Positions 29,113 to 62,647 of a stretch of 64,000 nucleotides of DNA are shown here, in pieces; positions within the stretch are counted from its first letter, which is position 1, and every line of letters starts with the position of its first letter. Below the pieces are notes generated by a model that ran no database searches, was not told the origin of the DNA, and saw only the letters and a list, made by a program, of their open reading frames with translations. Origin of the DNA: Hypomesus transpacificus (Eukaryota; Chordata; Actinopteri; Osmeriformes; Osmeridae); NCBI RefSeq assembly GCF_021917145.1, contig NC_061062.1, forward strand, positions 13,650,521 to 13,714,520, given 5' to 3'. The position numbers were made by a program, and so were the translations under genes.

Positions 29113-41057
<11,945 letters not shown>

Positions 41058-53400: not shown

Positions 53401-56400
53401 TATGGAGGAATTGGAGGACGAGGTGGAGAAGGAGAAGATGGAGGTGGAGTGGAGGAAGAGTGAGCTGGAATCGAAGGAGGAAAATAAAAAGAAGAGTCTG
53501 AAGTTTCAGGGTCTGCCTTTCCTCATAGGAATCTCACCAGCAGGCATCCTGACAGCCAATAAGAAGCAGCCAGGTGGTTCAGAAAAGGATCTAGTCCAGG
53601 TAAACACTGTATACATTCAGGACAAAAGAGAAGTAGCCTCTTGGTTCAATTTAGCACTTATCTGAGGCCTTTCATTAACCATTTTACATAACTACATAAC
53701 CCAATCCTGTTGTCCCATTATGTACTCTACATACTACGTTATCTGTCTAAAAGATGTTCTACAATATGGCTTGTTTCTTTTCTATGTTTCTCTGTTTTCA
53801 GCTGTAGGTAATATGCTGGAAAGCTCCTCACTCTGCATTCCATTTCTCTGCAGGTAAATGGTCGATCGTACCCCCATGCTAAGATCCAGCTGGGGAAGAT
53901 GGGTGCCATTCATCCTGCCAACAGATTGGCAGCATACCTCACTGGCAGACTATCCCATGCAAGCCAAGAGCAGGTTAAAGTAGCCTCCTCCTCCACCACC
54001 AATCCCACCATCGCCTCCAACTCGAAACCACAGAAGCAACCCTCAGCAGTGGGAATCTCTGCTCCTCAGCGAACCCCGTCTGCAGCCACCTCTTCCAACA
54101 CCTCTGTGACCACATCAGGTGAGGAGGAATCTCTGTGCTTTGGTGCGTCATGTGTTCCTGTCCCTTCCTGTGGTGTGCATGTTTTACACCCTCTCTGGAA
54201 GTGTTCTTCCCTCTCGATCCATATCAATTTGTGCTGTTGCTTGTTGTCACTATTTTAATGTGTTATGTTCTCTGTTTACAGACGTCCAGAAGACGGTGGT
54301 GTCTGTTTCAAACACAGCCCCAGGAGAAGTGGGAGCCCCAAAGCCCACTATGCTGATTATCCCTGTCCCTGGGACCAATAACGTATTCAAGATGCCCTGC
54401 CCGACCTCCCAGCCCCTGACACCCATCACGCCTGGCCAGAGGATGTTGCTCCAGCCTATCTGCTCCACCAAGGGGACCACCGTCTACCGCAACCCAGAAG
54501 GAAAGCTCATTCAGCTGGTTCCCCTCAGTCAGCTGCAGGCCCTCAACCCAAACCTGGTGGTGCAGAAAGGTAAGGAGCCATTCATCACCGCAGCTAATGG
54601 AAATGTGTAGTGACGTTGCAGTAACAACTTGACTTCTGCCATTTCAGCTGTTCCGCTTGCTTCTGCCCAGCCAGTGTTATCTACCTCAGTATCCTCGCCT
54701 GCCTCTCTACCTAAAAAGACTTTCTCTTGTGGCCAGGTCCTAAAACCTGTACCTCCAGGGCCATCCTCCACTGTCACACACACCCCTCCCTCAGTACATA
54801 CCGCCAGCAAGGCCTCTCCCAACGTCACTGTCCTATCCAGCTCCCTTCCAACCCTGGTCCCTCTTACAGTCAAATCCCCTGGAAGTCAGGTCAAGGTCAC
54901 AGAGACTGCAGTAAAAAAAAACGTGATGACATCCACCACTACATCATCACATCCCTCCACTTCCTCATCAGATGCCATTCTGGGAGAAGAGAGAGTGTAC
55001 AGTCCCACCTTTATCAGCTCTAAGTCTACTGATTCCTCCAAAATCCCTGTAACCTCCATAAATCCCCCTGTGCCCTACCAGAAGGTGTCTCTCAATCAGA
55101 CCCCCCAAACGTCCTCAGTCACTGAGCCAAGCTCTGGTATGATAGGCCAGGACGTCGTCTGTCGAAGGGAGGAAAATTATAAAGGGCCAGGAAAGAGGGT
55201 TGAAGATGGCGGGAGGATGGATATTTCTGAGGCAAGGCACTCACTAGGGGTGGAGGAGGAAGTGGATGTGGTAGACCTGGACAGTGATTCAGCGACGGAC
55301 ACGGACTCTGAGGAGGATACAGAAGAGACTGAAGATTCAGAGGTTGACACCAATGCATGTCCCCTGAAAGTTGTTGATGTAAGAATTATGGAGCATGATA
55401 GCCTACATGAGGACTGTTAATGTAATATTAATTAAGCTCTATACAACACACTGTAGTCAGTATCAGATAAAAAGTGTTGACCCTGTGTAAGTGCTTCCCC
55501 ATCATTGTCTTTAATGCACATTGTCTTGGGCATCAATGTGTGTGGTTGAGAAAATATAACTTATTTATTCTGTAGAAGAAGATTCTGCACAATGTCTTGG
55601 AGAGATTGCGTCGTGGGGACTTAAAGCAACGCTTTAAGCAGCTGAGGGAAGCACTGGAGCTGGATGAAAAATCAACCAAGATCCACATCTTGAACCAGGT
55701 CAGCCAGTCAGACACTAGGATGCTAGACTAGAACTAGAGGATGGTTGCAGCAAGTTGTGGGAATGGTTGGCCTGGGGTTTGAAGGAGAGGACTTGGGGAA
55801 AGGCGTTTTGCTTGGGGCTAGATTGGAGGCTGGCCCAGGGTGGCCTCTGGTTAAGGTGAGTGGCTGCAGCTTGAGGTGTCGCTAGGGGTTGGGGTAGGCT
55901 GGTCTGGGGTTGGGGTAGGCTGGTCTGGGGTTGGGGTAGGCTGGTCTGGGGTTGGGGTAGGCTGGTCTGGGGTTGGGGTAGGCTGGTCTGGGGTTGGGGT
56001 AGGCTGGTCTGGGGATGGGGTAGGCTGGTCTGGGGTTGGGGTAGGCTGGTCTGGGGCTGAGATAGGAGGATCACCACAAGCGATCACCTGGTTTGATATC
56101 AACATTGTTCCTTCAGGCAAAAAGGGAAATTAAGATCCTGCAGAGGTCGAGCAAGAGTCTGAAGAAGGAGCAGGCCTCTTTGGCCAATCGGAGAGCAGAG
56201 TGTTTCGAAATGATCGACCAGTTGACAGGTAAGATCAAATGGTAAAAGGCTAGACATCTTATAGGTTTACCCAATCAAAACCCATGTTGGAAATAAGTGT
56301 TTCTGTTCCCAGCCAAGAGTGGAGATAAAGAGGAACAGGCCACTGGGGCAGTAGGAACCGAGAGGCAGCACGTCCTGGAGGACTCAGAGAAAGTGCCCTC

Positions 56401-59400
56401 ATTGGTCAATGATGTGACTGAAGCGGTGAACCTATTGGATGACACAGAAGAAGAAACTGACAACTCCTCAGATGAGCACCCATTTGGACAGACTGACATC
56501 ATCAATGTCACCAGTGTAGGGGTTTAACTTTTTAATGTACCGTATTTTTTACTGAATGGCCGTGGCATATTGAGCACTGATTCCTAGTTCACAAGGATGT
56601 CCTTAAATTGTTCCAATATTACATGAAAATGATTACCATTGCTTGAGTTATATTTTCATGTCTGATTAGGATGAAGGTGAACAGGAATGGGAGTCTGTGG
56701 ATTCAAAGACTATGCAAGAGAATGTAGATGCACTGAGGACATCAGATGGCCCGCCGCAACCGAACAACGACGCAACGTGAGTCAGGCACAACGAGGCCTT
56801 AATACATCCTGAGAAAGGCTTATTAAACGGCTTGGTTTGGTCACAGTACAGGGGCACTAAGTATATGTGCACAGCGATCATTACCTCTTGACTTTTATTT
56901 GGTGCTTGTCTTTCCATATGACTTGTATGTAAGGGTTAACGTGTTGCTCTCCACGAGCAAAGTTCAGCCCTAATATAGAAATAGCTAGTGGAGATGTCTC
57001 ACTTGTGCGGTATGGTGGTGTTTTTTTTCAGGTGTTCTACCGAAGAAAACATGAAGTATGAAGACAAAGTTGTGAGTGACAACTTTTACGTACCCTCTGT
57101 CATCCCCTCTTCCATCCTTTATGTCTTCTGATGTGGTTATAGCATCAAGAACAAGCTTTCGAACCATCTTTCTAAAGTAACTTATTGGGCAGGGTTTTAG
57201 GATTGATGCAGACTAAGCTGTATTTGCTACTTCTGATTTTTCAGGGCATTGCCAAGCTGAGTCGAGAAAGGTACACGACACAGTACAAAAATTTGACAGA
57301 GATGCTGGACATCAAAAGAAGAAGGTCTACTGGCTTTGTCCTTAATCAGGTGAGAGCACTGAGTCTGCCTAGCAACACAAGTACATTAGGGTAATCGTGG
57401 AACAACTAATACTATACTAATACTATTACTCTCCCCAGGCCTGTAGGGAAATCAGAGACCTGAGTGACAAATGTAAGATTCTGGAGAGGCTGAAGGCTGC
57501 TCAGACACAGACCAGGACGGACTACATCCTCAAGGTCTCCCAACTCACAGGTAACGTATCCTAATGCCTCTACACTTTAGTAGCCTAATCCGTAGCAATG
57601 GTCTCTTTTTACCCACAGTAATATACACATAGTGTAAATACACAATAATGCTATAATGCAACAAAAAAACATTATAAAAATCCAATGTCGTAACATGTAA
57701 TACCATGCTAAATAACATTCATGCAACACCCTGGACCATGAATCAGGACTGATGGTGTGTTCTGTGCTGTACCTCCACAGGTAAGAAGGAGGAGAGGATC
57801 CTGTGGAAAGTACAGGAAATTTCCACGATGCAGAAGGAGGACCAAAGAAGAAGAGTTAAAGAGAATGAGAGAAGAAAGGCTGTCCTAGCACGGAAGGCTG
57901 TCCTCCAGCCTCCCGCCCAGGTCAGCAACAGACCAAAAACTGTCCCCAACATCCTGTCTCGTAGGAAAAAACTTCTTCCCATTGCCATGAAGCCCATGGA
58001 AGGTGAGTCCCCCTTCGTCATGGACCAAATGTGACTTTCTCCTCATTCCCATATTATATCCAACACAATGACCATATAAAGGATGCAGTCCATAACCTGA
58101 CATCCTCTTTGCAGGCGTTTCTCCATACATCCACACAGACCTGCTCCCTACTGGGCTGCTGGTGATCCCAGGTCAGCAGGTCATCACAATGGCACCCCTT
58201 CAGCCTATAAGCTCCTCCCTGCTTCACCCAGTCAGTCTGTCAGGGCTGGGCCTGCACCCTTCCCCGACACCAGGTACCCAACAGTCTCAACACCTCAACA
58301 CATGCTTGATTTGACCTTGCATACAGAGTACTGAAACAAATGGACAAATCTGTTAATTGCTTGTACTTGAATGATCTAAATATATATGATTGTTTCTTTT
58401 GTTCCATCAATGTTTAGGTGTTGCTTCAGTCACAATCAGCATCCCATCCCTGTCACAGCATGTCAAAGCCCTCCCCCTCTCCCTCAACCCACCCGGTAAG
58501 ACCTTCAGCCGAGCAACACACTGACCTAAATAACCTGTATAGTAATGGACTATAGTTACCTGAGAGGGACTATCTAATAGCAGGTGATCATAGTTTGAAA
58601 AGCTGACTTATAATCAACCTTTGTATGGGTGACCTATCATCCTAGGATACATAGCTGATATTCTGCCTCAAACCATCAAGATGTATTTATCTAAGAAAGT
58701 CTTGGTATATTGTATATTTTAGCTAGATATGCTGTACAGGATGATACACTGAACTCTCTTTCTGTCCCTCTCTCTCCAGGCAATGTAGATTATAGGATAT
58801 CTTTGGCTGCACAACACCCCCAGGTCTTGACACAAAACATTGGCCAAACCCAGGCCCCTGGGGCTCCTGGCCCTGCCTCCACGGCCCAGAGCAGCGCTCT
58901 AACAGTGCAGGGGGTGGGGCTACATGAAGAGAACGTAAGGCTCCTGGATGAGGGGATTGATTCTGCAGACTGTGTAGAGATGAAGGATGCTAAACAGGCT
59001 TCCGTCTCTGGGGATAATGCTGGTAGTGGTGATGAAGTTTATAGTGAGGATGAGAGTCTGACAACTCTGCTTAATGAAATTGTGTTCCTCAACCAGCAGA
59101 TCAGTAGTGACGACCCCGATATACCATCAGAGCTCCAAAGCTTACCCCCCCCTGTGTCAGGGACGGGTGGGGGGCCACAGAAAGAGAGGGGGGCAATGGG
59201 AGAGGGGGATGACGAGCGCTCCCTCAGCCCCATGTTCCTCAATCTGGATGAGGACAAGACTGGATCTCATGGGGACAATAAGTCATCCAGCAGTCTATCA
59301 CAGCGACCGGGACAGTCACTTGTTCCGGAACTTGACCATCACCCAGGGCAACAGTCCAACAGTAGGTCAGGTTCTGTGTTGGATTCTGATACCCTGACTC

Positions 59401-59549: not shown

Positions 59550-61546
59550 CATCTCCTCAACTAGCCCCCAGCTACAAATACACTACCTGCACTATTCCAC
59601 TGAACGCTAAACACACATCCAGCAGCCATGATGCCCTCCCAGAATGTTTTTTATGGCATGGTTAAGCTTGGTTCGGTTTGCCTAAATATCAAAATAGTAA
59701 TTCCAGGTTCATTTCTACTTATTCTAGTTCTCAAGACTTGTTCAGACATTTAAAGCAGCCAGGGAGAACAACAGACAGTAAAGGTTGCATAATGTCAGTG
59801 TTAATACTGCAACTAGCATCTCCTCAGGCCCCTAATCAGAAATCAGAGCTGTTTGTACTTCATAAATGCAAAAGGCCAGGCTTCTGGTTCCCACACACTC
59901 TTATCTCTTACTGGGATCTGGATTTGATCATTCCCCTGTTTTAAAGAGGAGATAGGAGACTCATGGGCTATATGAACTTTTATCAAAACCTGTACAGTAT
60001 TGTTCTGCCTCGTTCAATCAAAGGAACCTAGAGTTGTTGATAGTACTATAATGCTCTTGACTGTTTCAAAGGGTCCCTCCATGTTTCAATGGCTCATATT
60101 TGAAGGAAAATCATGTAAGAGTGATAAGGAACATTTCAACTGCTTTCCATCTCCCCACAACCACTCAAAGTATAGAACAACCTTAAGATTTGAAGATGCT
60201 TAAACTTGACCCACATATAATTGTGCCCTTTATCACCAAACTTTGGTATGTTTTTGGCCCTTCAGATCAGTGATCATTTCTACTGACCATTTACCTGCCC
60301 ACTGGTGTGTGAGGAAAGTGACCAGACATTCAATAACAAAAGCATGGAAGGTCACTTAAATGTTCAGAATTGCCAGGGATTGTATTAGGTACAAGAGAAG
60401 GGTTTACCGTTATCTTGTTCTCATTTGGCGCTGCTAAAAGGATTATACAAGGTGTAACACTAAAAGCCTCTGGTTATTCATCAAGTTACACCCTGACGTG
60501 ACAACGGTTTTATATTAGCCTCAGTATGGGATTATACTATATACTGTATGTCCTGGTGGTAAGCTCATTGTGTTTTTAACATTTTATTTTGTAAAAGCAA
60601 TATTTTTGTATGTTGTGTAAATAAGTTATCAGTGTTGTCAAAAGGAGACCTTGCAATAAAATATATTAAAGTTGGCGTGATTGAATAATTGTAACACAGG
60701 TCATAGTGCCATACGTATGTAACTTTTAAGTGTTGAATAATGTTATCATTTTTTATGTATTTAAGTATGGAATGCACACTGAGATTTAAATCTCTACACT
60801 TGGCAAAGAAAGCTGACATAGAGCAACATCAAAACAAATGTAAACATATGACATAACCCTTAAACTGCATACCTCATCGTTCATCCTGTGTATAAACGCC
60901 TGAGTGCTAAGGCGATACCGTAAACAAGTCTTACAGTTCTGAAACACTGTTTCATCGTATGCCCTTAAGAACGTTGTTGTTGACTGAGGAAAACTGACCT
61001 TTCTGTCTTGCCTCCTGGGACCAAGCAATGAGAATGTGACTGACCACACACCATGGCCTTTTCCATAACTGGCAAGACCTGGTCTCCCAGGGAAAATACA
61101 ATTTAAAAGCATCTCTCTGAAGACTTCGTTTTAGATCATGAAAGTTGGCACTGATACTTTAGTCTCAGAAACATACTGAGTTTGATCTCAGGAACTGCTG
61201 CCAGCTGTGTTGTGTGGTAAGTCCTAATCATACAGATTTCGTGTTTTGACAGTATTCAGTTTAGTCTTATTCAATCGTAGCCTACTAAGAATGCCTGTGT
61301 GTGAAGGTAGTAGTAGCTGTCTTGTTGAAAGTGTTATTTGACTGCACAGTGGTCTGCTTTACCGAGAGAGTTAAGTATGTTTGAATGTTTTATGGGTGTA
61401 TGTACATTTAGTTTCTACCTGCAACACATGGGTTTCACTGAAAATGATAAGACATAGACACAAAGGGAGCTTTCTGTACATGCATAATGTATTAACTCTT
61501 CCACTGTGATTTGTGTTTTGGAAGAACTTTAAGAGGAGGGAGCATC
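59550..61546. other. MGA 3' UTR and upstream region of the GPCR gene
   Basis: The first 1.1 kb is probably the MGA 3' UTR and ends near the AATAAA at 60655-60660. After that the sequence is AT-rich with no supported ORF. A possible non-coding exon of the GPCR gene ends at a GTAAGT donor near 61217, with an acceptor shortly before the start codon; this is inference. Confidence 0.5.
60655..60660 (+). terminator. mga: Candidate poly(A) signal of MGA
   Basis: AATAAA, about 1.1 kb after the stop codon and the only canonical hexamer in this part of the strand. It is followed by a T/G-containing stretch. Confidence 0.6.
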
Positions 61547-62647
61547 ATGGAAGACAACTTTAGCATCTCCTACCAAGATTGGTGGAAGGAACGCAACAGC
61601 ATGGACCTATCCCTTCCTGTGGTCCTCTACTTTGACTGCTCCCACATAAACAGTTATGGCAGGGTGGTCATCACACCACTCTTCCACATCCTGGCCCTGA
61701 TTGGCATCTTGGGGAACATCTGGAGCGTGTATATCTGCCTGCGGCCGATGCGACCCTGGACCATCGGTTCTATCGGCATCCTGAACCTGGCACTGTGTGA
61801 CCTGGCCTACCTGACCTCCATGCCCCCCCGGGCCCTCCAAATCTACTCCCACTATGACTGGAGTATGGGTCGCACGCTGTGCATCCTAAGTAGCATGCTG
61901 CACTTTGTGGGCCTGACCTCCAGCACCATGTTCATCTGCGCCATAAGCGTCGACCGCTTCATGGCCATCATGTTCCCACTGGAGTCGAGGATGGTGCGGA
62001 CGCCGAGGAATGCAGCGCTGGTTTCGGGACTGCTGTGGGCCATCACAGTCCTGCTCATCTACCTCAGCTACCCCAACATCGTGTACTGGGAGCGAAAGAG
62101 CGGCTTTTGTTACTGCGGGGTCATAGTCACCTCTAACCGCAGGTCCGTTGGAGCTACGTACTCCCTGCTCTCCTACTACTGCATCCAGGTCTCCGTCCCC
62201 CTCCTTCTCATCATCCCATCCTATATCAAGATCATTGCCCGCATGAAACAGTCACGCCTGCAATGGGCCGCGTGCGGCATTATCACGCAAGGGCGTGACA
62301 AGACCATCTGGCTCATCGCCGTCTTCATCGCTAACTTCCTGGTGTGCTGGGTGCCTGGGCAGCTGCTCCACATCGTCGCCTGCATCATCTTCTTCACTGT
62401 GTATGACCACACCAACATGTGCAGGGTGGCCAACATGGTGAATATCCTGGTGGAGATCTCGCAGCTGCTGTACTGTCTGAACGCCTGCCTGGACCCGATC
62501 ATCTTCCACATTCAAGAGAGGGCTGCAAAGAGGATCTGCAAGGCTCTGGTGTGCCCTGTCAGCTGGTGGAGTAATAGCATCTGGAAGAGCAATAAGAAAA
62601 ACTTGGTACCGCCACCCTCAGTCAGTGTAGTCAAAGTCAAAGTTTAG
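61547..62647 (+). CDS. Class A (rhodopsin-like) GPCR, P2Y/LPA-receptor-like orphan
   Basis: One intronless coding exon encodes 366 aa with seven clear membrane helices (about 40-64, 72-95, 108-134, 152-174, 206-230, 253-280 and 292-320). Seen directly: a sequon at N4, N57 in GN of helix 1, D85 in LALCDLAY of helix 2, the helix 3 cysteine C112, DRF (136-138) in place of DRY, CWVP (267-270) in helix 6, and DPIIF (316-320) in place of NPxxY. The strings ISVDRFMAI and RTPRNA are typical of the delta group that holds P2Y, LPA4/6 and proton-sensing receptors. I cannot name the ortholog or ligand. The ATG at 61547 was chosen as the first in frame; upstream in-frame sequence has no ATG. Confidence 0.9.
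   Translation: MEDNFSISYQDWWKERNSMDLSLPVVLYFDCSHINSYGRVVITPLFHILALIGILGNIWSVYICLRPMRPWTIGSIGILNLALCDLAYLTSMPPRALQIYSHYDWSMGRTLCILSSMLHFVGLTSSTMFICAISVDRFMAIMFPLESRMVRTPRNAALVSGLLWAITVLLIYLSYPNIVYWERKSGFCYCGVIVTSNRRSVGATYSLLSYYCIQVSVPLLLIIPSYIKIIARMKQSRLQWAACGIITQGRDKTIWLIAVFIANFLVCWVPGQLLHIVACIIFFTVYDHTNMCRVANMVNILVEISQLLYCLNACLDPIIFHIQERAAKRICKALVCPVSWWSNSIWKSNKKNLVPPPSVSVVKVKV

Follow-up and report, generated by a model that had tools for sequence, protein, structure and literature searches.

One of the two MGA genes of Hypomesus transpacificus has an internally duplicated, asymmetrically decayed bHLHZip exon pair

MGA and proteins with two bHLH domains

MGA is a MAX-pairing repressor that combines a T-box with a basic helix-loop-helix leucine zipper (bHLHZip) unit and is a component of PRC1.6. 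It has been described with one C-terminal bHLHZ domain (PMC8266391), a zebrafish study treats it as a T-box plus bHLHZip protein (PMC6172302), and the MYC network is described as one in which each protein carries one pairing domain, MAX therefore making no physical link between modules (PMC7358075). Here we analysed a 64-kb stretch of the Hypomesus transpacificus genome (C3:13650521-13714520), hereafter the window, in which an MGA gene contains two bHLHZip-type units, copy A (exons A1 and A2) and, downstream of it, copy B (exons B1 and B2). In contrast, a second MGA gene of the same genome, on contig C6, has a single unit, P (exons P1 and P2), as does MGA in the published descriptions cited above. 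In other respects the locus resembles MGA as it is known, with the same T-box and a C-terminal bHLHZip unit followed by a flank exon, and there are two genes as in zebrafish, for which Mgaa and Mgab are listed (PMC9916924). The two genes are probably ohnologs of the teleost genome duplication, to judge from the TAM-type receptor kinase gene ahead of the window gene, the WD40-like gene next to the C6 gene and the zebrafish pair.

The internal duplication is well supported, and we put the probability at roughly 0.6 that the window gene is an MGA ohnolog with an internally duplicated bHLHZip exon pair in which copy A would hold the E-box and MAX role while copy B would be a helical segment that does not read DNA. 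ID-type HLH proteins have the helices without a basic region and make no E-box contacts; copy B would be alike if it still dimerises, but it lies inside a DNA-binding protein and is not recognised by HLH profiles. The REF-1 proteins of C. elegans are not known to have a zipper or a T-box. They share with the window gene the presence of two bHLH domains in one protein, but belong to another, HES-like bHLH group and act with Notch signalling (PMC4683635). No description of an MGA with two units was found in the openly accessible literature searched, and sequence databases may hold uncommented cases. A two-unit member would break the single-domain rule of the MYC network; it could bind two molecules of MAX at once or serve as an internal decoy. 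Moreover, with one-unit and two-unit ohnologs in one genome, the part played by the MGA bHLHZip in PRC1.6 targeting and in the repression of meiotic genes could be tested on a natural pair, and the spread of the arrangement among fishes decides between a single-lineage curiosity and an unremarked feature of fish MGA.

Common descent of the two exon pairs

A reading of the window from its letters alone (the sequence-only reading) had proposed that the bHLHZip exon pair was duplicated in tandem inside MGA. The coordinates, the exon phases (0/0 and then 0/1 in both pairs), the split between LNQ and A-x-R-E-I, the 112-nt second exons and the identities that it gave were all reproduced. Without gaps, A1 and B1 are identical at 9 of 35 positions and A2 and B2 at 12 of 37, giving 21 of 72 together. 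The ungapped BLOSUM62 score of A2 and B2 is 43, compared with a shuffled mean of -19.5 (standard deviation 12.4), and none of 20,000 shuffles scored as high. Among 14,374 stop-free windows of 37 residues in the three forward frames, the two second exons are reciprocal best non-self matches, at 43 versus 21 and 15 for the next. The right-anchored score of A1 and B1 is 38 (0 of 5,000 shuffles as high; identity p 0.0010; local alignment p 0.0006), and the whole units score 84, with a shuffle maximum of 64 (n = 5,000).

The C6 gene, found via other conserved parts of MGA, lies at ~7.558-7.571 Mb on the minus strand and contains a T-box (PF00907, 206.7 bits) and the single bHLHZip unit (PF00010, E 3.4e-6). 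Its acidic exon ends in phase 0 and is followed by a 98-nt exon (0/2) that starts with Asp-Glu, a 46-nt exon (2/0), P1 (174 nt, 0/0), P2 (112 nt, 0/1) and a flank exon that begins in phase 1 and carries Gly-Lys-Pro-Glu-Glu; this series of phases (0/2, 2/0, 0/0, 0/1, 1/-) is reproduced by window exons 18-19-B1-B2-22. Exon 22 and the C6 flank exon score 61, compared with a shuffled mean of 25.7 (standard deviation 4.6; 0 of 3,000 shuffles as high). Local similarity was also detected between exon 18 and the 98-nt exon (p 0.008), with the best local match displaced by six residues, and the shuffle test gave p 0.0023 for exon 14 and the C6 acidic exon, a value to be read with their low complexity in mind. 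Because the C6 series matches 18-19-B1-B2-22, copy B occupies the place of the original unit, and the additional exons form the block A1-A2-17, running from phase 0 to phase 0. Pooled profiles run over the window and 28 kb of C6 found three units, two in the former and one in the latter, besides a weak match at E 0.68; a profile scan of the 28 kb around the C6 gene gave no trace of a second unit there. The intron position and exon length shared by A and B (and, like the phases, by P), their sequence similarity and a one-unit ohnolog that matches the B side support the proposed duplication.

Several further observations concern the C6 gene. Its T-box (~7.5694-7.5705 Mb, minus strand) scores below that of the window gene (206.7 versus 236.6 bits for PF00907), and the combination of an intact single bHLHZip with a more diverged T-box makes a division of labour between the ohnologs possible. 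The C6 acidic exon (~7.5606-7.5609 Mb) has a long run of aspartate codons at its end. A WD40-like gene, putatively MAPKBP1, adjoins the C6 gene, and a search of NCBIfam with three peptides from neighbouring genes gave no match for any of them.

The profile analysis distinguishes an MGA-like signal in copy B from a general one. The whole-unit profile of A and P scores B at 31.1 bits; of 5,000 shuffles, the 4,989 that were scored reached at most 13.7. The profile of two MYC-like sequences from this genome scores A at 31.5 and P at 28.6 bits, with no shuffle as high for either, and gives B 1.5 bits, a value that 2,023 of 4,995 scored shuffles reached. Copy B is therefore recognisable as an MGA unit, but not as a general bHLHZip.

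The low score of copy B with the MYC-like profile is one of several results that weigh against our interpretation. When leave-one-out exon profiles were scanned over six frames of the window and the 28 kb of C6, the first-exon profile of A1 and P1 did not list B1 at E <= 1, and the profile of A2 and P2 found B2 only at E 0.0054, with the next new match at 0.7; the corresponding values for the other exons were 6e-6 (A1), 0.14 (A2), 0.011 (P1) and 0.11 (P2). B1 compared with P1 alone gave a local p of 0.096, and the similarity between exon 19 and the C6 46-nt exon was not significant (p 0.21). In addition, exon B1 alone was predicted as one continuous helix rather than a helix-loop-helix (mean pLDDT 82.5), from a two-row alignment by which an HLH is neither shown nor excluded, and the functional half of the interpretation is inferred from sequence. 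The exon structure, the similarity between A and B and the profile of A and P nevertheless support common descent of copy B with the MGA bHLHZip unit, the exon-wise leave-one-out profiles being weaker. A genome-wide PF00010 search (437 Mb; 150 of 183 candidates scored) contained neither copy B nor the C6 unit among the 133 matches listed, which has little meaning for copy B since the C6 unit is missing too.

Retained residues and alternative explanations

In MAX structures, a His, a Glu and an Arg make the E-box contacts. Copy A keeps all three at the corresponding positions, and once spliced it matches PF00010 at 32.6 bits (cut-off 20.7; E 7e-8), while exon A1 alone gives E 1.7e-4. In the PDB, it matches MYC at E 3.8e-6 and MAX from 1.8e-4; some designed TPR proteins reach whole-sequence E values down to 5.5e-7, from many tiny repeats of which none passes singly. 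Copy A has the HLH profile match, the contact residues and a leucine zipper directly after helix 2.

Copy B showed no match to PF00010 or to any HLH model in the profile searches, and its eight PDB matches at E <= 10 include no bHLH protein. In the ungapped alignment, the three contact positions are occupied by Lys, Ala and Arg, with the first two residues of the motif supplied by exon 19. Aligning the Glu-Arg of B1 with that of A1 instead retains Glu but puts Lys in the place of His and Thr in that of the last Arg; consequently, two of the three base contacts are lost under either alignment. Thr replaces the helix-2 Lys and Gly the next core Ile, while the other core positions examined are Tyr, Tyr, Leu, Leu, Val and Leu. 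The heptad d positions read L-L-L-C-L in A, L-L-Q-Y-L in B and L-L-L-Y-A in P. Exon B2 alone, in a two-row alignment with its A counterpart, was predicted as a single helix (mean pLDDT 97.6), which is compatible both with an HLH and with its absence.

The sequence-only reading had further suggested that the DNA-contact role stayed with, or moved to, copy A while copy B became a dimerisation-only module. Its first part agrees with the residues of copy A, and the loss of base contacts in B with partly kept heptads fits the second; on the other hand, no HLH profile recognises B, and its dimerisation is our inference. The PF00010 check put forward for both units gave a significant match for A and none for B. 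Since B is in the ancestral position, the canonical role would now reside in the extra block.

We propose that in the ancestral gene, as in the C6 ohnolog, a single unit was flanked by a phase 2/0 exon and by the exon with Gly-Lys-x-Glu-Glu. In the window gene, a second copy, A1-A2 with exon 17, precedes the original one; it is neutral to the reading frame and sits between exons 14 and 18. Both units would most likely be present in one protein chain. Copy A would then pair with MAX, bind CACGTG and continue the ordinary role of MGA, and copy B would be kept as a helical segment without DNA reading, offering at most a second pairing or protein-contact surface. Exon 17 was also considered as the duplication junction, with an exon-22-type start and an exon-14-type acidic end, and was rejected: its 1/0 phases fit, but the sequence tests fail (similarity p 0.58 with exon 22, 0.75 with the C6 flank exon, 0.28 with exon 14 and 0.15 with the C6 acidic exon).

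Unlike P, copies A and B both have LNQ ahead of the split, a terminal QLT and a loop shortened by three residues, the loop of MYC-like sequences being as long as that of P; a duplication after the ohnolog split is therefore favoured. These features stand against a possible, though not favoured, alternative in which both units predate the split and the C6 gene lost copy A, so that the arrangement might be widespread in ray-finned fishes; the lack of any trace of a second unit around the C6 gene also counts against it. This older origin draws support from the second exons, in which A and B have diverged about as much as either has from P (identities of 12 for A-B, 10 for A-P and 11 for B-P, out of 37), and from trees that do not decide: in a likelihood test of the three topologies (81 columns, seven sequences) none was rejected, they were ~1 log-likelihood unit apart, and B+P was nominally best. 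B and P share a heptad Tyr, and the site counts are 9 for A=B, 12 for A=P, 8 for B=P and 12 for all three. That copy A was not duplicated in tandem but copied in from elsewhere, for instance from the C6 ohnolog, is very improbable. The whole-unit score is indeed higher for A-P (111) than for A-B (84), but the faster change of B is enough to depress the A-B score, and the short loop, LNQ and QLT again unite A and B against P.

The present use of the two exon pairs also allows more than one explanation. Copy B may be a relic, the original unit having become redundant once A existed and now drifting, still spliced in, without function. In favour of this tentative alternative, base contacts are lost, no HLH profile matches and the heptads are eroded; yet the frame, the 112-nt length and the splice sites are intact despite 21 of 72 identities to A, whereas stops or frameshifts would be expected after free drift to that level. 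It is unlikely that the units are two unlike working modules, with A acting with MAX on E-boxes, B forming pairs that do not read DNA (with MAX, with some other partner or with A), and the exon pairs serving as cassettes that switch MGA and PRC1.6 on or off E-boxes. Also unlikely are alternative cassettes in the strict sense, in which 14-A1-A2-22 would yield an E-box-binding MGA and 14-18-19-B1-B2-22 a non-binding, dominant-negative-like MGA. Both routes are open and in phase, as are 18 of the 128 subsets of the seven middle exons, but a duplication of this kind brings phase compatibility with it, which is no evidence of cassette use, and the full exon chain is equally open. In mouse germ cells, an MGA splice form that lacks the bHLHZ acts on PRC1.6 as a dominant negative (PMC8102552), a precedent that gives a cassette switch a possible use.

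Exon architecture and neighbouring features

The exons around both units are listed in the table below; the numbering, in which A1-A2 are exons 15-16 and B1-B2 exons 20-21, and the total of 2908 residues were taken from the 5' gene model of the sequence-only reading. A1, A2, B1 and B2 all have GT-AG borders, and exons 14 to 22, once spliced, translate without a stop. By consensus count, the exon 17 donor AGT|gtaggg is the weakest of nine (5/9). The N-terminal T-box of the window gene is present.

Exons of the window MGA gene from exon 14 to exon 22 (window positions)
Feature	Position	Strand	Length (nt)	Phase	Description
Exon 14	54648..55378	+		1/0	Acidic C-terminal part; precedes the extra block; borders and frame checked
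Exon A1	55576..55698	+	123	0/0	Copy A from the basic region through helix 1 and the loop to the start of helix 2; retains HNxxERxRR
Exon A2	56117..56228	+	112	0/1	Helix 2 and zipper of copy A
Exon 17	56313..56515	+	203	1/0	Acidic; last exon of the extra block (A1-A2-17), which has a net phase of 0 to 0
Exon 18	56670..56776	+	107	0/2	Asp-Glu at start; counterpart of the C6 98-nt exon
Exon 19	57032..57071	+	40	2/0	Counterpart of the C6 46-nt exon
Exon B1	57245..57349	+	105	0/0	Copy B from a degenerate basic region through helix 1 to the start of helix 2
Exon B2	57439..57550	+	112	0/1	Copy B: helix 2 and a putative, partly eroded zipper
Exon 22	57781..58002	+	222	starts in 1	Gly-Lys-x-Glu-Glu C-terminal flank after copy B, also behind the single C6 unit

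The intron between A1 and A2 contains a minisatellite (55885-56056) with a 21-bp unit in 8.2 copies and 98% matches. Directly downstream of MGA, on the same strand, lies a single-exon open reading frame of 383 residues (61496-62644) that was labelled by eye as similar to a G-protein-coupled receptor. Upstream of MGA, an exon of a TAM-family receptor tyrosine kinase was found at 39909-40367, with PDB matches to UFO (E 3.4e-25), TYRO3 (1.8e-24) and Mer (2.6e-24).

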